Part shown: positions 5,815-27,375 of the stretch, in pieces
Layout of the letters: each line of letters starts with the position of its first letter
Position numbering within the stretch: position 1 is the stretch's first letter
NCBI GenBank assembly: GCA_902763805.1
Contig: CACWTN010000008.1
Coordinates: forward strand, 1 to 64,000
Direction: 5' to 3'
Length of the DNA: 64,000 nt
Source of the DNA: an uncultured bacterium
GTDB lineage: Bacteria; Cyanobacteriota; Vampirovibrionia; Gastranaerophilales; Gastranaerophilaceae
Notes under the pieces: model-generated
What the model saw: only the letters and a program-made list of their open reading frames with translations
Database searches by the model: none
What the model was told of the DNA's origin: nothing
Position numbers and translations under genes: made by a program

Positions 5815-6029
5815 TGACTGAATTTTACTCATACATTACAAAAGACAATGACCGATGGGATTTGATTTCAAACCAATTCTATAATACCCCGACACTTTAT
5901 GAAGAGATTATAAAAGCAAATCCCGATGTGAAAATTCTGCCTGTGCTTCCCTCCGGCATCAAATTAAAAATTCCGATTTTGGATGAATCAGAAACCATAA
6001 AGTTTGAACTTCCTCCTTGGAAAAAATAA
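5814..6029 (+). CDS. Tail protein X (LysM-like)
   Basis: This 71-residue protein resembles P2 gpX: a LysM-like fold with the pattern DRWDLISNQFYNTPTLYEEI then ANPDV and PSGIKLKIP. In P2-like tails it binds the gpD hub region. It is coupled to gpU by an overlapping stop and start. After it come 137 bases without a gene; that gap has an A-rich start and no clear hairpin, and its purpose is unclear. Confidence 0.88.
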   Translation: MTEFYSYITKDNDRWDLISNQFYNTPTLYEEIIKANPDVKILPVLPSGIKLKIPILDESETIKFELPPWKK

Positions 6030-18344: not shown

Positions 18345-18812
18345 ATGACAAAAACAGTATTAGGAAGTGAAAACACACAATACGGATTTTATGGAACTAT
18401 TTACAGTTACAATTCAGAAAAAGAAACAGAACGCAAGTGGGCAGAAGCATTTGAATTACTACTTAATTTATCAGGTCTGACTCCTGCTGAAATTAGAACT
18501 TATCTTGATAGCAGAAGTGGGAGAAAATTAGCAGACTGCTGCAACGACTCAAATGATGATGTAAAAGCAGTAATAATAAGAGAATATTTTAAATGGGTTG
18601 ATGATGATTTATTTGAATGCCGAGTTAAAGACCTTCAAAATATAAGCAGAATGTTATTCGGAACTGTAATGCACGATGATATTACAAATCAAGATGTAGT
18701 AATATTATGCGAGGGAACTAAAAAATATAGAAAAGAAAAATATTTCAAAGTTATTGATAAAAACGAAAACATATACATAACAAGAATGGATTTTTTAACA
18801 CCAAATGAATAA
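18345..18812 (+). CDS. Phage protein, unknown
   Basis: This 155-residue protein is the last rightward phage gene. GAAAGGATAAAACA precedes the ATG. The middle has helical segments (EAFELLLNLSGLTPAEIRTY) and the C-terminal part is beta-rich (DVVILCEGTKKYRKEKYFK, IYITRMDFLTP). No recognised domain. Its stop lies just before the hairpin that terminates the opposing early operon. Confidence 0.6.
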   Translation: MTKTVLGSENTQYGFYGTIYSYNSEKETERKWAEAFELLLNLSGLTPAEIRTYLDSRSGRKLADCCNDSNDDVKAVIIREYFKWVDDDLFECRVKDLQNISRMLFGTVMHDDITNQDVVILCEGTKKYRKEKYFKVIDKNENIYITRMDFLTPNE

Positions 18813-18842
18813 AAAAAGCTCCAAAGGTTCTGCCTTTGGAGC
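18811..18842 (-). terminator. Terminator of the early operon
   Basis: GCTCCAAAGG and CCTTTGGAGC form a perfect 10-bp stem with loop TTCTG. On the minus strand it is followed by a seven-T run, so it stops leftward transcripts. On the plus strand no T run follows. Confidence 0.88.
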
Positions 18843-18862
18843 GAAAGAAGTGATAAAATTTT

Positions 18863-19153
18863 TTAGTGTGCTTTGGAGATTTTTTTATTTATAATTTGTG
18901 AAACTTGTCTTTGCGTTAATTCGCATTGTATAGCAAGTTTTTTGAGCGAATTTCCTGTGCCATCATATTTATCGAGAATGTACCGTTCTATTGATTTTCT
19001 AAATGGTTGTTTCGGGATATAGATTGTTAAGCCTCTAAGTGCCATCATTATTCTTATTGCACATTCGATTCCGGCTTCTTCAACTATTGTTTTTAAATCT
19101 TCACCTTGTACATCCTCCGACTTTACATAGTTTTTCCATGGGGTGTTTTGCAT
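18863..19153 (-). CDS. Mor-type transcription activator
   Basis: This 96-residue protein fits the Mor/C family that switches Mu-like phages to middle or late transcription. Its beta segment GLTIYIPKQPFRKSIERYIL and C-terminal HTH (GNSLKKLAIQCELTQRQVSQ) are the family marks. Start chosen with GAGGAAAA before the ATG. It is the last early gene, placed 31 bases after a hammerhead ribozyme, so its mRNA would gain a 5'-hydroxyl end on cleavage. Probable targets are promoters of the rightward late genes, perhaps the dyads at 16116 and 17786. Confidence 0.85.
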   Translation of the reverse strand: MQNTPWKNYVKSEDVQGEDLKTIVEEAGIECAIRIMMALRGLTIYIPKQPFRKSIERYILDKYDGTGNSLKKLAIQCELTQRQVSQIINKKISKAH

Positions 19154-19184: not shown

Positions 19185-19250
19185 GGTCATCATCAGTTAG
19201 AGCTTTACTCTAAGACAGGAAGCTTGCACAGATAGCCTCCTGTTTCGACC
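19185..19250 (-). ncRNA. Type II hammerhead ribozyme, copy 1
   Basis: Read on the minus strand: GGTC, GAAA, a 10-bp stem III (ACAGGAGGCT/AGCTTCCTGT, one G-U), C17 at 19214, stem I (TTAGAG/CTCTAA, loop TAAAG), then CTGATGA, one extra T, and GACC closing stem II. All core residues of the hammerhead (CUGAUGA, GAAA, U16.1, H17) are present. Cleavage is expected between 19214 and 19213. The ends of the motif lie in stem II, defining type II. The extra T between A9 and stem II is unusual but shared with copy 2. It sits between the 90-residue gene and the Mor gene. Confidence 0.85.
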
Positions 19251-19252
19251 TT

Positions 19253-19525
19253 TTACTTTGCTTTTGCAAATTCTTTTTCTTGTTCAAGAGTTTCTTCAAG
19301 TTTTGATTTTGCTTTAGTTAATTGTTCAAGTGTTGCTTCTTTAGGTTTAACTTGTTCAATTAACTTGCCCATTTGATTCAAGTTATTCATAATCAGATGA
19401 ACTTCTTTTGGTTCTGTAATATATGCTTTAATTGCACAGTCAGCGATTTTAATTTTTAAATTCTCGACTTCAATCTGACATTCAAGAACCTGTCTGTTCA
19501 AAATATCTACTGCTAAATTACCCAT
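19253..19525 (-). CDS. Small coiled-coil early protein between two ribozymes
   Basis: This 90-residue protein has two helical coiled-coil stretches (about 10-35 and 55-90: TLEQLTKAKSKLEETLEQEK). AGGAGG precedes the ATG, placed just after ribozyme copy 2; the stop is two bases from copy 1. Cleavage at both ribozymes would leave this gene alone on a fragment of about 361 nt. No family recognised; the position fits the small unknown genes between gemA and mor in Mu-like phages. Confidence 0.7.
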   Translation of the reverse strand: MGNLAVDILNRQVLECQIEVENLKIKIADCAIKAYITEPKEVHLIMNNLNQMGKLIEQVKPKEATLEQLTKAKSKLEETLEQEKEFAKAK

Positions 19526-19545
19526 TTTAACCTCCTTTCTTGCTT

Positions 19546-19610
19546 GGTCATCATCAGTCAGAGCCTCACTCTGAGACAGCCGGCTTGGATCAGAGCCGAC
19601 TGTTTCGACC
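19546..19610 (-). ncRNA. Type II hammerhead ribozyme, copy 2
   Basis: This has the same architecture as copy 1. Stem III is ACAGTCGGCT/AGCCGGCTGT and stem I is TCAGAG/CTCTGA with loop TGAGG. Compared with copy 1, stem I changes one T-A pair to C-G and stem III changes two adjacent pairs with pairing kept, while the core GAAA, C17 (19575), CTGATGA and closing GGTC/GACC are unchanged. Cleavage is expected between 19575 and 19574. It starts at the stop codon of the upstream gene (the G of TAG) and ends about 20 bases before the next ATG, so it separates two coding parts of one operon. Confidence 0.87.
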
Positions 19611-19942
19611 TAATGCATGTTGGCGAACATTGGGGAATGCATATTTTCGATGGACTTTTTGATATCTTTTAATGCTTGATATTTTGCATCAAGTAGCTCT
19701 GTCTCTTTTTCATAAACGGCTGTTTGCTGCCAACAATCGCCATTACGTTTAGAATCTCTTCTTCGTGCTTCTGACTTTGAAAGTTGTTTATCCAATTCCA
19801 TCATTTCAAAATTGATAACACTTACAACTTCAGATATAACTTTGTCTTTTTTATTTAAATCAGAGATTTCCTCCATAAAAGTATCCTTTGTTATGTTTGA
19901 TATTGCATCCATTTCTGTTTCATCTTTTGTCATTGTTTCCAT
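19610..19942 (-). CDS. Small early phage protein, helical
   Basis: This 110-residue acidic, helical protein (DEISDLNKKD-type segment; ELLDAKYQALKDIKKSIE near the end). I start it at 19942, where GGAGAG lies six bases upstream; the frame extends to 19990 without a site. Its stop codon overlaps the first base of ribozyme copy 2. No family recognised. Confidence 0.65.
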   Translation of the reverse strand: METMTKDETEMDAISNITKDTFMEEISDLNKKDKVISEVVSVINFEMMELDKQLSKSEARRRDSKRNGDCWQQTAVYEKETELLDAKYQALKDIKKSIENMHSPMFANMH

Positions 19943-19961: not shown

Positions 19962-20420
19962 TTAATTAGTATTAACATTTGTGCGGCCACACTTTTTTTC
20001 TTGATAATATTTTTTTATTTTTTGAATCATGTAAATAACATTGGTTGCTTGCTTTTTTGACAAGAATTTAATGTCTTCTAATTTAATCTTGTCTGATAAA
20101 AGCTCTCTCAATTTTTTCTGAGTTTCTTGGTCGTGATTATAATTATCCTCACGCCATAATCCCATAATGAAACGAAGTTGACTTGGGGTAGCCATATTTT
20201 CTCTATTACAGTCTTCGTATTTAAGTTGCATCTTCTCCCATAAATTAAGTGCAACAGCATTATCTTCAAGTTTATTTAAAAATATTGCTGCTTGCTTAAA
20301 ATTTAAATCTTTAGAACTTGAAACGCCATATCCTGAAAGCATTTCTCTGTATGTGCTTTCATCAATACCTAATCTGCTTTTTAGCATATGAATTCTTTTA
20401 ATTTGTGATTTCGATGCCAT
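19962..20420 (-). CDS. gemA: GemA-like protein (DUF1018, Mu gp16)
   Basis: This protein of about 152 residues has the DUF1018 marks: KRIHMLKSRLGIDESTYREM at the N-terminus and ATPSQLRFIMGLWRE in the middle. GemA of Mu affects gyrase and host gene expression; here only homology supports this. The frame is open to 20459, but the homologous region begins at MASKSQIK (20420), and the upstream part overlaps another small gene. No strong ribosome site is present, so translation may be coupled to the 57-residue gene that ends within its first codons. Confidence 0.8.
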   Translation of the reverse strand: MASKSQIKRIHMLKSRLGIDESTYREMLSGYGVSSSKDLNFKQAAIFLNKLEDNAVALNLWEKMQLKYEDCNRENMATPSQLRFIMGLWREDNYNHDQETQKKLRELLSDKIKLEDIKFLSKKQATNVIYMIQKIKKYYQEKKCGRTNVNTN

Positions 20421-20571
20421 AATATGTTTGTATATCCTCACGTTCCAAATTTCTTCCATGCTTTATTCCAAGCTGCACTCCCAAGATAAAGATGGATAAA
20501 CAAATAATAAAAGCGTATAAAACTTTTGGGTCGGAATCTAAAAATCTTAACGGCATTCTACTATTATGCAT
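20398..20571 (-). CDS. 57-residue single-pass membrane protein
   Basis: A small frame starting at 20571 with AAGGAG eight bases before the ATG, inside the end of the MuB-like gene. The product has one membrane segment (VLYAFIICLSIFILGVQLGI, about residues 17-36) with a short N-terminus and a charged 20-residue tail. It overlaps the start of gemA by 23 bases. Tight spacing on both sides in the early operon argues that it is real. Function unknown; early membrane proteins of phages often serve exclusion or host takeover, but nothing here shows that. Confidence 0.68.
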   Translation of the reverse strand: MHNSRMPLRFLDSDPKVLYAFIICLSIFILGVQLGIKHGRNLEREDIQTYYGIEITN

Positions 20572-20576
20572 TAGTA

Positions 20577-21464
20577 CTACTCCTTATCCATCAGCATCTT
20601 GGCAGTTTCCTTAACAATAGCCTCATCGACCTCAGCATTACCATTTATTGTGGCAACACTTAAGCTATTACTAATTAAATGTTCAAGTCTTCTTGTATTA
20701 CCTCTGCAAACACCAAAAAACACGTTTGCAAGGTCAGACTTTAGTCCGGCTCCGGCAATGATGTTTGTTACATCATTTTTAACAAGACCTTCTAAATTTT
20801 TTCTATACATAACTCTTGAGTAAAGTTGGTCATATTGATTTTGTCTTCCCCTCAAGTTCTGTAATAAAACCTCACGACCAATAAGAAGTAATCCTACTCC
20901 TGTTTTATCGTGGATTCTGCGAGTTAACTCTAATGCTTCTCTGCGTAAGTTTTCAGCCTCATCAATAATTATTAATCTTCCTGAACCAGTCATTTTTTCA
21001 ACAACTTCTTCCATAAGGTTATAAGCAGAACCTTTACATGAAAGTCCTAGTATTTTATGGAGTTCAAGTAACAAAGAACGAGCTGTATAACTATAATTGC
21101 TTTCTATTAAAATTGCATCAGGATATTTTTTTACATATTCTTTTGCTGCGATGGTTTTACCAAGTCCGGCATTACCAACACAAACACCAATTCTTCCACG
21201 AGTATGGCATAACTGTGCAATTTCTCTAACATATTGCATTGTTGATATTTCCACAATTGGCAACTGCCAAGCTGTACGACGTGCTTTTTCACGCTGTATA
21301 AAGTTTTTAATTTTTTCTGTAAGCTCTGTATTGTTACCTTTGTAGTATTTATTCTGCCATTGGCTAATTTGTGATTTAGAGACACAAAGTTCATCAGCAA
21401 CAAATTGTAAACTGATATTATATTTTTTTGTTAAATCTTTAAATTCTAAAATTATGTCATCCAT
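20577..21464 (-). CDS. MuB-like transposition ATPase (module A)
   Basis: This 295-residue AAA+ protein activates the MuA-type transposase and selects target DNA. An N-terminal HTH (about 14-40, KKYNISLQFVADELCVSKSQ) is followed by Walker A GNAGLGKT at 97-104 and Walker B LIIIDEAE at 164-171. A sensor region near LLLIGREVLLQNLRG follows. Length fits MuB (about 312). Its first codons overlap the transposase stop by eight bases. The C-terminal domain is the part that binds DNA and transposase in Mu. Confidence 0.9.
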   Translation of the reverse strand: MDDIILEFKDLTKKYNISLQFVADELCVSKSQISQWQNKYYKGNNTELTEKIKNFIQREKARRTAWQLPIVEISTMQYVREIAQLCHTRGRIGVCVGNAGLGKTIAAKEYVKKYPDAILIESNYSYTARSLLLELHKILGLSCKGSAYNLMEEVVEKMTGSGRLIIIDEAENLRREALELTRRIHDKTGVGLLLIGREVLLQNLRGRQNQYDQLYSRVMYRKNLEGLVKNDVTNIIAGAGLKSDLANVFFGVCRGNTRRLEHLISNSLSVATINGNAEVDEAIVKETAKMLMDKE

Positions 21465-23427
21465 TTACTACCACTCCTTTCATCTTTTCTTCTGCTTCAG
21501 CTAGGAGTTTGTCAGTCTCAAATAAGAATATTCTTCTTTCTTTTTGAGGTTTTGTAACGGACAACAAAGCTGATAAATCCTGCTTGCCGTACTCATCCAT
21601 CTCTTTCTTCTTAAGAACAGCCTTTTCCATATTTGTATTTGCGACTTTGGTGACACGAGGGTTGGATTCTTTTATAACCTGAGAATAAGCAGCCATATAA
21701 TTTTCACATTGTTCTGCTATATCTATTTCTCGTGTTTGTTGGATATAAGATTTTGTAACTTTAATATTACGTTTCTTTATAGCCATAGCAGTTTTAAATT
21801 CTTCTTTTGAAACTTTATCGGCATATAATGCAGCAACAGCTTCAACAGCAGTTACAGTCCCAACAAATTCTTCATTTTCAACTTTAAATGCCCAAGCCTC
21901 TTTGTAATTTTCAGGATCTCGTCTAAGATATACTTTTAATCCGGTATTGGCTATCATCCAATCAGACCAATAAGTAATGCCGAGTTGCCTATCCTGAATT
22001 CCATTTCTTCCAACTGTAAAATTGCGTGATGTACGCATACAAAACAATTTTAATGCATCGTGTGGAATAAAAACTTTTTCTTGATATTCTTTATTAAATA
22101 ACTCATCAGGACACATTCCGTTAAGATTTTTACCCTGAGATGGTCTTTTATTAAAAATATTAATAATAAAATTATCAAAGACCTTTTTTAAATCCGCAAA
22201 ATTCATTATAGTGCCTTGTTTGATTTTGTCTGCTAGAACTTCAGGTCTTTCAACAACATTCCCACCACGATAACCCACACAATGCTTTGATAACAATTCT
22301 TTAATCTTAAGAAAATCTCTTTCTATTGGCTTTGTTTGTGCATTATATGGTAAAGCAAAATTTACACCAACATTCAACTCATCAAGCATTGATGTTGTTC
22401 TTGATACATTAGAATCTATTTTTATTTTTCTTCTTCCGCCGGCAAAATCTTTGCAACGGTAGTCCTTACCATTATCAATAATTACATCATCAGGTAAACC
22501 ATATTTTTCAGCAGCATAATAAAAAGTTTGAAATATATGGTCAGAATTCGGACTTCCTGTTTGTAAATACCAACCAAGCCACTTGCCGGATTTATAATCT
22601 CGCCACGCAGTAACCCAAGGAAAAACAACATTGTTGTTTTCATCAAAGCAAGCTATATCTATTTGTGCGTGGTCAGAAACCCATACTTTGCCACAAGTTA
22701 TATTTGAATAATCTCTGTTAATATAACCACCATATTTTCTATTCCACGCACTTGCACCTTTTCTTGCTCTGTAAATTGCTTGTTTAGGGACTTCTTTTTC
22801 TAACTTTCTTAGAAAAGTTCTGTCACAGGGGAAATTGTATTTATTTATGCTATTATCACATCGCATAGCATAACCTAGTGTAGAATCCCAACAGGAACGT
22901 AATGAGGGAGAACCCTCAACTAAATATAAATTCTTAAAATAATCAAAATATTCATCTGCGATTTTTGATAACTTTGTAGTACCATATTTTGCTAATAAAC
23001 CTGATAAACCATTATCTTTGTATCTTTGTCGCATTCTCATTACTGAAGAATAAGTGGTTGATAAATCAGGATTTTCAGAATTCCAATTGTCAATATACTC
23101 AAATAATTCTTTACCTCTTAGTGTTCTTGTAGCCTTAACAATATATAAATACTTGTCAGCCTGAGCCTTTGCCCACTTTGGGGAATCAGAATAAGCAGTT
23201 TGTGGTTCAGCATCTGATTCATCATATAAATAAATATTTTGATAATATTCCGGCAAAGAATTAAAACTTATAAAATAAAAACATTTTTTATTTTTCTTTT
23301 CAACTTTATAATTGAATTCCGAATTTCTGCATTTATTTTTAACAGTTTTTTCACTTAAATTTAATAAGTTACAAACTTCATCAAGAGGCAGCCAATTAGG
23401 AGTATTTATTGCCAATGCTTCAGCCAT
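21457..23427 (-). CDS. MuA-like transposase (module A)
   Basis: This 656-residue DDE recombinase carries phage ends into target DNA. Residues 1-65 hold the Mu-type DNA-binding fold (PNWLPLDEVCNLLNLSEKTV). The catalytic core has Asp252 (KVWVSDHAQID), Asp318 (VIIDNGKDY) and Glu369 (QTKPIERDF), spaced as in MuA. A C-terminal beta-barrel and a basic tail, where MuB contact lies in Mu, complete it. Start at ATG 23427 overlaps the stop of the small HTH gene. All catalytic residues are present. Confidence 0.92.
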   Translation of the reverse strand: MAEALAINTPNWLPLDEVCNLLNLSEKTVKNKCRNSEFNYKVEKKNKKCFYFISFNSLPEYYQNIYLYDESDAEPQTAYSDSPKWAKAQADKYLYIVKATRTLRGKELFEYIDNWNSENPDLSTTYSSVMRMRQRYKDNGLSGLLAKYGTTKLSKIADEYFDYFKNLYLVEGSPSLRSCWDSTLGYAMRCDNSINKYNFPCDRTFLRKLEKEVPKQAIYRARKGASAWNRKYGGYINRDYSNITCGKVWVSDHAQIDIACFDENNNVVFPWVTAWRDYKSGKWLGWYLQTGSPNSDHIFQTFYYAAEKYGLPDDVIIDNGKDYRCKDFAGGRRKIKIDSNVSRTTSMLDELNVGVNFALPYNAQTKPIERDFLKIKELLSKHCVGYRGGNVVERPEVLADKIKQGTIMNFADLKKVFDNFIINIFNKRPSQGKNLNGMCPDELFNKEYQEKVFIPHDALKLFCMRTSRNFTVGRNGIQDRQLGITYWSDWMIANTGLKVYLRRDPENYKEAWAFKVENEEFVGTVTAVEAVAALYADKVSKEEFKTAMAIKKRNIKVTKSYIQQTREIDIAEQCENYMAAYSQVIKESNPRVTKVANTNMEKAVLKKKEMDEYGKQDLSALLSVTKPQKERRIFLFETDKLLAEAEEKMKGVVVNG

Positions 23428-23626
23428 TATTTTCTCCCAATTCGGTTTTTACCAAAGATAAAATATAATCATCAATCAAACTACAATTCCGTTTTCCATC
23501 AAGATGTAAACGAACGTAAGTGTCAGTAACGTGTACAGCACGAGCAATGTCTGTGGCTTTTAGGTTATAAAGTGCCATCAGAAATTTCAAGATAAGTCTT
23601 TTTTTGCAAAGATTACAATCGCACAT
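23420..23626 (-). CDS. Small HTH regulator (Ner-like)
   Basis: This 68-residue protein has a cysteine-rich N-terminus (MCDCNLCKKR) and a helix-turn-helix at about 25-48 (ATDIARAVHVTDTYVRLHLD). It is the first gene of the module A early operon. In Mu the equivalent position is held by Ner, which turns off early transcription. GAGGAAG lies seven bases upstream. A dyad symmetric operator-like element lies 14 bases further upstream, a likely binding site. Confidence 0.72.
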   Translation of the reverse strand: MCDCNLCKKRLILKFLMALYNLKATDIARAVHVTDTYVRLHLDGKRNCSLIDDYILSLVKTELGENNG

Positions 23627-23639
23627 AAAAACTTCCTCG

Positions 23640-23676
23640 CTTGGGGTATGATATATTGGATATATACATTACCAAG
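23640..23676 (-). promoter_or_regulatory. Early promoter/operator of module A
   Basis: An imperfect dyad runs from CTTGG to CCAAG, with TATGATATAT and ATATATACAT arms. On the minus strand TTGGTA and TATCAT are 16 bases apart, a sigma-70-like promoter lying within the dyad. Whether the small HTH protein binds it is inference. Confidence 0.55.
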
Positions 23677-23958
23677 CTAACCTATTTTTTGTATTTTCGT
23701 AATTCTCCATGTGGACACGCCTAACTGGATGGTTGCGAATCTAATTTAAAATCAGAACACAACTCTTTCAAAATAATTATAGTAAATTTATAAAATTATA
23801 AAAGAGCTGAAACTCTCTCCCTGTTCGGTTTCAGAACAAATGGTTCAATGTAAAATTATAAGATATTTTTAGATAATTTTATATAAAAAAATAGGTTGTA
23901 AATCTCAATAAAAAAATAAAAAATTGTTCGGTTTTTATGTTAAGAAATATTACAAAAA
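23677..23958. promoter_or_regulatory. AT-rich control region between modules A and B
   Basis: No gene is visible. The 10-mer TGTTCGGTTT occurs twice, at 23822-23831 and 23925-23934; the first copy continues as an inverted pair GTTC-N7-GAAC. These are candidate repressor sites. A single TTGCGAAT at 23733 echoes the right-end repeats but is not enough to mark a transposon end. No clear hairpin terminator follows the 219-residue gene. Confidence 0.4.
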
Positions 23959-24618
23959 TCATACTAATAGATTACTTAGAATAAAAAATCGTTCTTCAAA
24001 ATCTTTGTTTCTTTTCCAAATTGCTTCCGCAATTTTATGATGCATGTTTTTAAGTACGGAATTATGTGTAAGCTCTCTTGTTAAATAATAATATATCTTT
24101 TTATATTCTGCTCGGTCGTTTTTCGCCAAGTGTTCTTCTTCTGAAATAAAAGGTTTGGCTGATACAAACACCTGATTCTCGTACATGTATAAGTTAGCCA
24201 CCTTGCCTAAAAAAGTCGGATGTTTTGCAAACTGTGGCTTCTCGATGTAATATTTTTCTAATCTTTTATACTGCTCTTCATAAATTCTGCTGCGGAAATA
24301 TCTATAAAACTTTAAAACTTGCTCTGCTGCCATATCAATTTGGAATGCTACTTTATGAGCAGGAACTTCAGCACAATAACTTTTAATAATAAAATCAACA
24401 ATGTGTTCAGGATAATAATTCATAACAGAATCGCTGATATTTTCGGGGTTGGATTTATTATAGGTGTAAATACCTTTGTTTAAACATAGTTTATTCGCTA
24501 ATAAAAAGCTGTTTAAAATAGGTTTTAAATCTTCAGAATCAATTTCAGAAATCAGCAGTATCTCATCAAATGTAAATTTATCAAGTCTACGGCATAACTT
24601 TAAGATTTGGTCGTTCAT
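23959..24618 (-). CDS. Module B accessory protein, DNA-binding-like, unknown
   Basis: This 219-residue protein has an N-terminal winged-helix-like stretch (FTFDEILLISEIDSEDLKPI) and a second HTH-like segment in the middle (VPAHKVAFQIDMAAEQVLKF). The rest is helical and charged. It overlaps the module B ATPase by 32 bases, with AAAGGA upstream, so the three genes form one unit: transposase, ATPase and this. By position it could be a target-selection or regulatory partner like TniQ/TnsD in other transposons, but no such domain is recognised. Confidence 0.55.
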   Translation of the reverse strand: MNDQILKLCRRLDKFTFDEILLISEIDSEDLKPILNSFLLANKLCLNKGIYTYNKSNPENISDSVMNYYPEHIVDFIIKSYCAEVPAHKVAFQIDMAAEQVLKFYRYFRSRIYEEQYKRLEKYYIEKPQFAKHPTFLGKVANLYMYENQVFVSAKPFISEEEHLAKNDRAEYKKIYYYLTRELTHNSVLKNMHHKIAEAIWKRNKDFEERFFILSNLLV

Positions 24619-25294
24619 TTAAAAGTCCTTTCAATGTATTTTCGTCTATAATCTCGATTTGATTTGTTCTTGCAAGGTTTTCAATTTTATTAATAAGTTT
24701 GATTATTTGCCGGAACTGATTCTCTCGTCTTATAAGATATTCTATGCTGTCATCGGTAAATTTTATGTCTGACAATTCGTTTAGAATCAAGCGAATGTCG
24801 TTCTCATCAAATCGTTCAAATTTAAGACTTTTATAAATCCTGTCACAAAAATGTGGCAGTACAGAGAGCTTTTTCTCTATATTTTCCATCCCGACTAAAA
24901 CAAGCGGACACTTTGTTGTATCGTGTAAATCTCTCAAAGTTTCAATTATATTCTGCCGGAGTAAATAATCAATTTCATCCACAATAATTATTTTAGGATC
25001 CTTTATTAAAGATTTTTCTATTAATTCATAATTTGACTGCGAATGCCAACTTGCTGATATATCCAAATCTTCTGCCATTTTTGATAAAAGCCATCTTTCT
25101 GACATTCCACGAATTGCTCTGACATAAACCGCATCGTTCTTTGCTGCCCACCATTGAATCGTTTGTGTTTTTCCTAATCCATACTCGCCATACACCAAGG
25201 CTACCTTGGACATATTTGGCGGAAGATTTCTTAACTCTTCCATAAGTGCTGCGAACTTTTTCACGTTCTTTGTTTTGATAAATGTTTTTTTCAT
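24587..25294 (-). CDS. AAA ATPase of transposition module B
   Basis: This 235-residue ATPase lies directly after transposase B. Walker A is GEYGLGKT (36-43) and Walker B IIIVDEID (102-109); LVLVGMENIEKKL fits a sensor-1 region. Unlike the MuB-like protein of module A it lacks an N-terminal HTH, so it is shorter and of a different subfamily, nearer to TniB/IstB-like or B3-type phage ATPases. Its ATG overlaps the transposase stop, with GGAG seven bases upstream. Role: transposase activation and target choice, by family. Confidence 0.85.
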   Translation of the reverse strand: MKKTFIKTKNVKKFAALMEELRNLPPNMSKVALVYGEYGLGKTQTIQWWAAKNDAVYVRAIRGMSERWLLSKMAEDLDISASWHSQSNYELIEKSLIKDPKIIIVDEIDYLLRQNIIETLRDLHDTTKCPLVLVGMENIEKKLSVLPHFCDRIYKSLKFERFDENDIRLILNELSDIKFTDDSIEYLIRRENQFRQIIKLINKIENLARTNQIEIIDENTLKGLLNERPNLKVMP

Positions 25295-27300
25295 AAGTCG
25301 TCTCCATATATTGTTATGTACTCGTCACTTCTGATATAATCAGCAAGCCATTTTCTGTCTTCTTTATTTGTGCATCCGTTTTTCATCAGCCATTCAAATT
25401 TTTCATAATTATTCTCAAACAATGGTTTATTCATCTGCTCTTCACGAGGGGTAAGTTTGTGTTCTCGTTTCTTTTTCGGTTCTTTAAATCCTTCTATCTC
25501 TACCGGCGGATTATTCCGTTCAATTTCCAAAACCTCAAGAGCTTCCGCAGGATATATTTCCTTAACCATTTTCTCTACACGTTTGAGTCGCTGTTGTTGT
25601 TTTACATACTGTTCTTTGTATTCGTTATAATCTTTTACTGTGCCGAGAACACGTGCCATCGGATGTACTTTAGCAACTCTGTCAGCTACACATAAAAATT
25701 CGCCTTTTGTGGAATAAACATATATTTTAGTTAAATCAAACAGGCTGTATTTTATGTTTACTTTATCCCTGAGTCCGAGAAGCATATCGTGTCGATAATG
25801 CATATTTAGGAATGTAATTCCATGTTTGTTTATTGTTCTCTGCTGCGTTTCCATCATCAAATCATTTAATAATTCAATTGGAATATGTTGTTTTTCAGCT
25901 TTGCTTAAGACCTCTTTAATCGTCATATCAGGAACATTCGGACAGGGTTGAGAGTTATGAAACTCTATCCAACTATTAATATATTTAATTGCTTCTTCAA
26001 TGGTCGGAACATAATTTTGAGTTATTTTTTCATGTAATTTTCTGTGCAAATATTCGCCTCTATTCATACACGCAGGTTTATCGATAATCGAAACCCCTGT
26101 GTATGATGCCATTCCCTTTTCAAACTCTTCTTGGAATTCTAAAAAGAATCGTTCAATAACCTTTGAACGTGCATTGTAAGGTTTAGCAAAAACGGAGTGG
26201 ACACCTAAATTGGCATACACTCCGTTAAAGCCCTCCTCCTCGAAGTCACAATTTTGGAAGAACCTCGACTTAAAGGCTTTGCCATTGTCTTGGTAAACAA
26301 CTTTCGGAATCAAATCAAGATTAATAATTGCGTTTCGTAAAGCAGATGCAATACATTGAGTATTTTCAGACATCATTATTTCATAACCGACAAGTGCTGT
26401 AGACTTCCAATCTAAAAAACCGACAAGAGTTGCTCTCGCCGGTTTTCCTGTTAACGGATCCAAAACTTGGAAGTTTAATTTATGTCCGTCTGCCACAAAA
26501 ATATCCCCAACCTCAATTTTAGAAATATCTCTTTCAAGATATGCTTCCACATTATCGTGATATGCTTTCTTTCCGTCTCTTGCATAAGTCCATAAATCAA
26601 AGTGAGTATTTTTAAAATGTTCCGCAAATCTTTTGAAGGTCAAATCGCAAGGCAAATCTTGATATCCGCATTTTATTTTCAGATATGCTTTTGTAAGTTT
26701 TATTGCTTTGCCAAGTTTTAATCGGTGCGGATGCAATAAAAATGATAATAAAACCTTTTGCATCGTGTCATCAAGAATTGTATTGTATTCCATTGCTTTA
26801 GAATATTTATAATTCGGTGCTAAAACTTCTGCCGATTCACTTTGTTTATATTTACTAATCCACCGATGCAGAGTGCCGATTGAAATATTACCGACATAAT
26901 TATGTAATTTAGGAAGATATTGTCCGAGGTTAAATAATTCTAAAAATACCGCATCAGCCTCTTTATTAGTGCGATATTTTGACCTGAAGTTAAGAGCAGC
27001 TTTAACAATATCGCATCGTGCAAGTGCTGTTATTTTTGCACTCTCGGATTCAAAATTTTGTGGCTGACAATTTGCCGGAACGAGTGCTGTCGTTCCTGAG
27101 TACATCTGCGATAAAATTTCCTGAACATCAGCCTCTAATGTTGAATATAATATCTCGTAAGTTTCGCCACCATTAACTTTTACTTTCCGAGCAATATATT
27201 TACTGTTAGGTTTATTTATTTCCAACCTTAATGCTCGGTTACTTGTTAACCCTTTGGCTTTTGCCACGTCATTGATATTTACATAAAAATCGTTATTCAT
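25291..27300 (-). CDS. Second MuA-like transposase (module B)
   Basis: This is a 669-residue DDE transposase from the start at 27300 (MNNDFYVNINDVAKAKGL); an upstream ATG at 27354 would add 18 residues but lacks a ribosome site. An N-terminal Mu-type HTH is followed by the core with Asp271 (IFVADGHKLN), Asp338 (VVYQDNGKAF) and Glu383 (KVIERFF), and a Mu-type C-terminal barrel (RHDMLLGLRDKVNIKYSLFD). It differs strongly from transposase A, so the two are not recent duplicates. All catalytic residues are present and no frameshift is seen, so both modules may be functional. Confidence 0.9.
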   Translation of the reverse strand: MNNDFYVNINDVAKAKGLTSNRALRLEINKPNSKYIARKVKVNGGETYEILYSTLEADVQEILSQMYSGTTALVPANCQPQNFESESAKITALARCDIVKAALNFRSKYRTNKEADAVFLELFNLGQYLPKLHNYVGNISIGTLHRWISKYKQSESAEVLAPNYKYSKAMEYNTILDDTMQKVLLSFLLHPHRLKLGKAIKLTKAYLKIKCGYQDLPCDLTFKRFAEHFKNTHFDLWTYARDGKKAYHDNVEAYLERDISKIEVGDIFVADGHKLNFQVLDPLTGKPARATLVGFLDWKSTALVGYEIMMSENTQCIASALRNAIINLDLIPKVVYQDNGKAFKSRFFQNCDFEEEGFNGVYANLGVHSVFAKPYNARSKVIERFFLEFQEEFEKGMASYTGVSIIDKPACMNRGEYLHRKLHEKITQNYVPTIEEAIKYINSWIEFHNSQPCPNVPDMTIKEVLSKAEKQHIPIELLNDLMMETQQRTINKHGITFLNMHYRHDMLLGLRDKVNIKYSLFDLTKIYVYSTKGEFLCVADRVAKVHPMARVLGTVKDYNEYKEQYVKQQQRLKRVEKMVKEIYPAEALEVLEIERNNPPVEIEGFKEPKKKREHKLTPREEQMNKPLFENNYEKFEWLMKNGCTNKEDRKWLADYIRSDEYITIYGDDL

Positions 27301-27375
27301 CGTACTCACAGAATAACTCTGTGTGTGGAACAATGGAACACCACTTCCGAGCATTGTGTCGGTTTTGTATCAATT

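Follow-up and report, generated by a model that had tools for sequence, protein, structure and literature searches.

The locus examined here raises the question of what the two similar elements are that stand between early-operon genes of a Mu-like prophage, and what they would do to the transcript that carries them. Both lie on the minus strand of a 64,000-nt stretch of DNA, the whole of which is referred to below as the window. An initial annotation, made from the letters alone, had read positions 19185-19250 and 19546-19610 as type II hammerhead ribozymes, and our re-reading of the sequence bears out both the coordinates and the order of the motifs. We term the upstream element copy A (19546..19610) and the downstream element copy B (19185..19250); each was recognised by its motif, its fold and a covariance-model match. 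Read from 19610 to 19546, copy A is GGTC-GAA-A.CAGTCGGCT/AGCCGGCTG.T-C-TCAGAG/CTCTGA-CTGATGA-T-GACC. Copy B, read from 19250 to 19185, has the same layout, with CAGGAGGCT/AGCTTCCTG as stem III and TTAGAG/CTCTAA as stem I.

In copy A, the two strands of stem II occupy 19610-19607 (5') and 19549-19546 (3'), followed on the 5' side by GAA at 19606-19604 and by stem III (19603-19594 / 19585-19576); C17 is at 19575, stem I (19574-19569 / 19563-19558) carries the loop UGAGG, and the core CUGAUGA (19557-19551) is followed by an extra U at 19550. The corresponding positions in copy B are 19250-19247 and 19188-19185 for stem II, 19246-19244 for GAA, 19243-19234 / 19224-19215 for stem III, 19214 for C17, 19213-19208 / 19202-19197 for stem I with the loop UAAAG, 19196-19190 for CUGAUGA and 19189 for the extra U. 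Both copies thus have a stem III of ten pairs (the A15.1-U16.1 pair counted in), a stem I of six pairs and a loop I of 5 nt, and in both the core (C3-UGANGA9, G12AA14, A15.1-U16.1 and H17) is complete. The cleavage sites given in the initial annotation, 19575/19574 and 19214/19213, are the right ones for cleavage predicted 3' of C17 in each copy. Its reading of the core as GGTC, GAAA, CTGATGA and GACC was accurate, but it overlooked the single extra U that both copies hold between A9 and stem II (CUGAUGA-U-GACC). On folding, the three-way junction was both the minimum free energy and the centroid structure of each copy, with z-scores of -2.6 to -3.5, and in the sequence and the predicted fold stem II is open while stems I and III are closed by loops, which is the type II topology. 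The two copies differ by two-sided changes in stem I (one pair, U-A to C-G) and in stem III (two pairs), with the core fixed. Judged by sequence, both elements are type II hammerhead ribozymes.

It should be considered that the standard model does not recognise them. A run of the Rfam hammerhead II model had been proposed with the initial annotation, which took a lack of hits to any hammerhead model together with a lack of cleavage to speak against its reading, and indeed the Rfam scan of the window at the gathering cut-off gave no hammerhead match, nor did a scan at E<=10 of the 801 bases around the elements; neither copy reached the gathering cut-off of RF02276, which is 37 bits. We regard this as a blind spot of RF02276 rather than as a refutation: relatives whose core is canonical go undetected by Rfam as well, and in other phages RF02276 picks up the pseudoknot form but no member of the short-loop subclass described below. 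The RF02276 model itself holds only two pairs in stem II and treats the extra U plus position 10.1 as an insert, a design that may account for some of its low sensitivity.

To obtain a model independent of the window, we used viral contigs, which were scanned with a pattern consisting of the core with the extra U and no stem sequence beyond the flanking pairs. In at least 80 viral loci, a script found at least 134 type II-like structures with stems I, III and II closed. Two forms can be told apart among these. The long-loop form allows pairing between loop I and the 3' tail and is reported by Rfam as RF02276; the short-loop form drew no report from Rfam in any locus scanned. A covariance model, R1, was then trained on 20 viral sequences of the short-loop form, none of them taken from the window. 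In this training set 100% of cells pair and 13 of the 17 pairs change on both sides, and none of 500 shuffles reached the observed covariation. R1 scored copy A at 65.5 bits (E 9e-19) and copy B at 65.0 bits (E 1.3e-18), with no further match at E<=10 in the 64-kb window and a next-best match of only 12.4 bits across the 1.96-Mb genome.

Relatives within the host's own order, Gastranaerophilales, show the same behavior. A genome-wide pattern scan yielded five relatives, of which three carry the label Gastranaerophilales or Cyanobacteria and the other two are rumen genomes. R1 matched in 39 of 286 Gastranaerophilales genomes. Across 61 aligned R1 matches, mainly from Gastranaerophilales, 99.2% of cells were paired and 13 of 17 pairs presented two-sided changes. 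Within the core, nearly all variation fell on two positions where hammerheads tolerate change, N7 (U or C) and H17 (C, with a single A). The extra U is absent from nearly all Gastranaerophilales relatives, whose core is canonical, and present in a few sequences, among them both window copies. The closest relative (L086) carries both copies in the same places as the window and differs from it by two-sided changes, U-A to C-G in stem I of copy A and G-C to A-U in stem III of copy B. The claim that the paired changes are covariation and not chance is therefore upheld by the fold, by the scores of the window-free model and by the compensatory changes in orthologues.

The short-loop form can be described as a subclass, with a 6-bp stem I capped by a UNANG pentaloop, a stem II that is usually of 4 bp and a near-invariant A before stem II. 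Among 92 distinct members the pentaloop letters are U (92), N, A (90), N and G (87), a conservation that is somewhat inflated, as the loop was fixed in part of the sampling patterns. The base before stem II was specified in no pattern and is A in 99 of 100. That this A is a mere by-product of a stop codon was considered and rejected, as it persists at loci whose stop codon lies at a distance of 7-9 nt. A complement of at least 4 nt between loop I and the tail is present in 7 of the 92 pentaloop members, as against 78 of 91 long-loop members; in the window copies the longest complement between loop I and the 3' tail is 2 and 3 nt, and no pseudoknot is visible. This pattern suggests that the UNANG loop may contact the end of stem II, at the near-invariant A, in place of a pseudoknot. 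The subclass shares with the type II hammerheads of RF02276 (PMC3088659) the core, the three stems, the open stem II, cleavage after GUC (here predicted) and the occurrence of several copies between genes of a prophage operon, and many phage type II hammerheads also carry a U between A9 and stem II. The RF02276 members differ in their longer loop I, whose pairing with the 3' tail is common although not universal. Since Rfam does not see this subclass, counts of hammerheads in gut phages are probably too low.

The surroundings of the elements are those of a Mu-like early operon, with MuA, MuB, GemA and Mor homologues on one strand. In the order of transcription on the minus strand, these are a MuA-like transposase (21457..23427; phrog_310, E 2e-84), a MuB-like transposition ATPase (20577..21464; phrog_296, E 5e-72), a gp16-like GemA (19962..20459; PF06252, E 7.3e-11), orf110, which has no assigned function (19610..19942) and whose stop codon shares one base with the start of copy A, then orf90, a gene of about 90 aa between the two ribozymes (19253..19525), and, directly downstream of copy B, mor (18863..19153), a transcription activator of the Mor family (PF08765, E 8.5e-07; late transcriptional activator in PHROG). 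Directly after mor, a hairpin followed by a T run (18818..18842, minus strand) resembles an intrinsic terminator and is the predicted end of the operon. The ribozyme elements themselves were also considered as terminators, and this was rejected, with no T run found 3' of either. Together with the compensatory changes in orthologues, this gene content supports the earlier assignment of type II hammerheads to a Mu-type early operon. The placement is, however, less novel than the initial annotation claimed, as PMC10085705 mentions an enrichment of bacterial hammerheads and twisters around the genes of Mu-like phages.

With the early operon of phage Mu, the window operon shares the genes A, B, gemA and mor, the Mor family and the position of mor as the last gene before a terminator; it differs by being predicted to be cut before orf90 and before mor, and by a second MuA/MuB-like pair upstream. 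To our knowledge, no ribozyme occurs in phage Mu itself. Mor activates the middle promoter of Mu (PMC4390567).

Nearly all of the Gastranaerophilales loci retrieved have the element on the operon strand in the interval from gemA to mor, directly before mor. For a count that does not depend on the ribozyme, the order was searched with MuB, which gave 48 full-length-like places (E below 1e-25), 3 of them running off the contig and 45 testable. An R1 match was found downstream of muB in 37 of these 45 prophages, and damaged copies in two more, one entering a run of N inside the element and one interrupted by an insertion. The remaining 6 gave no copy, and in 2 of these 6 mor is more than 4 kb away; as these prophages do without it, the hammerhead is not essential to the phage type. 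In one locus (L210, 5500-5760, minus strand) an insert of about 90 bases, whose ends are hairpin-like, splits stem I of the hammerhead before mor in its 3' arm, and in another (L209, about 5880-5960, minus strand) the same gap before mor holds no hammerhead but a perfect hairpin (GTGCAGGGAAAATTCCCTGCAC). A search of viral contigs with Mor alone found no relative. Among the Mu-like contigs of IMG/VR, which were collected with a MuA alignment, the close relatives (L221-L230) repeat the placement and the more distant ones are mostly without it. One more distant Mu-like phage (L245, 9669-9739, plus strand) has a hammerhead II of the Rfam-recognised pseudoknot type about 100 nt before mor, that is, the other subclass in the same place. 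The phage collection, searched with GemA, gave one weak partial match, and so holds no isolated phage close to the window prophage.

The second copy travels with a gene. We found 15 loci with two elements about 350-390 nt apart and one gene of about 90 aa between them, and orf90 and the second ribozyme co-occur in all 15. Detectable orf90 relatives are found almost only in such two-ribozyme loci; none was detectable in single-element loci, except on one contig, which breaks off within the gene, short of where a second copy would lie. The elements also fit tightly between genes, starting about -3 to +9 nt from the upstream stop codon and mostly ending 9-38 nt before a start codon led by a Shine-Dalgarno (SD) sequence. 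For 54 phage members without detectable Mu genes, the sense strand has the upstream stop in 39 and the downstream SD and start in 34, compared with 9 and 3, respectively, in the antisense control. A single contig, IMGVR_UViG_3300032897_000001 (loci L058, L026 and L016), contains at least 8 short-loop hammerheads in about 9 kb, between small genes.

We consider it probable that these are cis-acting, self-cleaving type II hammerheads that cut the early polycistronic mRNA and release separate orf90 and mor messages, a reading that agrees with the motif, the covariation, the operon strand, the tight fit between stop codon and ribosome-binding site and the conserved position before mor, all of which are observed directly. 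Each copy would cut after C17 (19575 and 19214, minus strand), and the early transcript would yield an upstream piece (muA-muB-gemA-orf110), an orf90 RNA of about 361 nt and a mor RNA of about 400 nt that would end at the terminator after mor. Because stems I and III are closed hairpins in the type II topology, the 3' end created by each cut would carry hairpin III and the 5' end hairpin I; standing alone, their calculated energies are -14 to -16 kcal/mol for hairpin III and -5 to -7 kcal/mol for hairpin I. With their ends thus protected, the separate messages would allow Mor, and Orf90, to be made and to decay independently of the transposition genes. The host genome encodes RNase E/G and RNase Y, and RtcB was not found in this 99.7%-complete genome by a search that was positive in 9 of 14 control genomes; re-ligation is therefore unlikely, and end protection could matter. 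Type II ribozymes without a pseudoknot can be slow. Prophage hammerhead arrays have been shown to cleave, and of core insertions some reduce activity strongly while others do not (PMC3088659). For the window copies, we infer cleavage, its rate with the extra U and its effect on stability and timing.

The cutting might instead be conditional, depending on a ligand, a protein or the last ribosome to clear the stop codon, and decide whether mor is expressed. Such a regulated switch, which we consider unlikely, agrees with the position before the activator being kept across divergent phages, and with the start of the element within a few bases of the upstream stop in nearly all loci, so that stem II and GAAA would lie beneath a terminating ribosome. 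However, no aptamer-like domain is appended, stem III having only a short loop, and predicted SD accessibility is hardly altered by cleavage. An unmasking of the ribosome-binding site by the cut was likewise unsupported by folding, the mean unpaired probability of the SD going from 0.61 to 0.61 and from 0.69 to 0.75. One specific form, rather unlikely in our view, is a ribozyme gated by translation: as it begins at the upstream stop codon, terminating ribosomes would hold it unfolded, and it would cut, and free the mor message as a separate unit, only when translation of the early genes slackens. If true, this would link the early-to-middle switch of the phage to translation.

It is decidedly unlikely that the elements are catalytically dead double hairpins, kept to stabilize the RNA or to insulate genes. 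The perfect simple hairpin at the same place in L209, which lacks the hammerhead, and the core insertion of the window copies would agree with this, but a hairpin needs no catalytic core, and the core is held in nearly every relative while the stems are free to vary. An element acting at the DNA level, be it a site bound by Mor, MuA or a repressor or one used in recombination, adjoins a regulator gene as one might expect, and recombination between the near-identical copies could drop orf90; it is nonetheless highly improbable, as the DNA varies while three RNA helices keep their pairing, the conserved letters are those of the hammerhead core, and the same element is found in phages without a detectable Mu gene. 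Barely credible, too, is an excised orf90 RNA circularised through its 5'-OH and 2',3'-cyclic phosphate ends, since, although two hammerheads flank one short gene as in the retrozymes that yield circles, the host genome gave no RtcB gene and circular products of prophage hammerheads were looked for and none found (PMC3088659).

Perreault et al. (2011, PMC3088659) described type II hammerheads located between prophage genes, among them tandem arrays around ardA and around small genes in the prophages of A. tumefaciens, A. caulinodans and C. scindens, and the role of bacterial hammerheads was called open in 2017 (PMC6155905). In the ardA-type arrays, as here, two or more copies bracket small genes, and cleavage of such arrays was shown on transcripts of about 2 kb; they differ in that the flanked genes are reported as not constant, while here the same regulator lies downstream in most related prophages. 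The hammerheads and twisters of PMC10085705, for which that paper cites earlier work, come from genomes of this kind and have the same broad link to Mu-like genes; the exact position before mor, the subclass and the Gastranaerophilales series were not found in the papers covered. Our literature search, which covered the Mu association through the statement in PMC10085705, found no description of a pseudoknot-free UNANG subclass, of a fixed position directly before mor or of the bracketed orf90. The association of hammerheads with Mu-like genes is thus already published, and what we did not find reported is the pseudoknot-free subclass and the fixed mor position. According to the literature, the genes that bacterial hammerheads flank are small, not conserved and without a known function; with the same regulator behind a hammerhead in many related phages, and one further gene accompanied by a second copy, a definite function, the release of the mor and orf90 messages, becomes testable.

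Some further features of the prophage were noted. The second MuA/MuB-like pair makes a tandem arrangement at 20577-27354 (minus strand), with 25291-27354 and 24587-25294 as one pair and 21457-23427 and 20577-21464 as the other; both pairs are present in many related prophages of the order, and two transposase modules within one Mu-like phage look unusual. At 18345-18863, the early operon (minus strand) and the structural module (plus strand) converge at the terminator after mor, unlike the layout of phage Mu, which runs in a single direction. In three of the genomes (G104:C3, G163:C33 and G264:C107), the MuB frame was counted as 359 aa with one in-frame TAG, which could reflect readthrough, recoding or the stop-to-stop count of the search.
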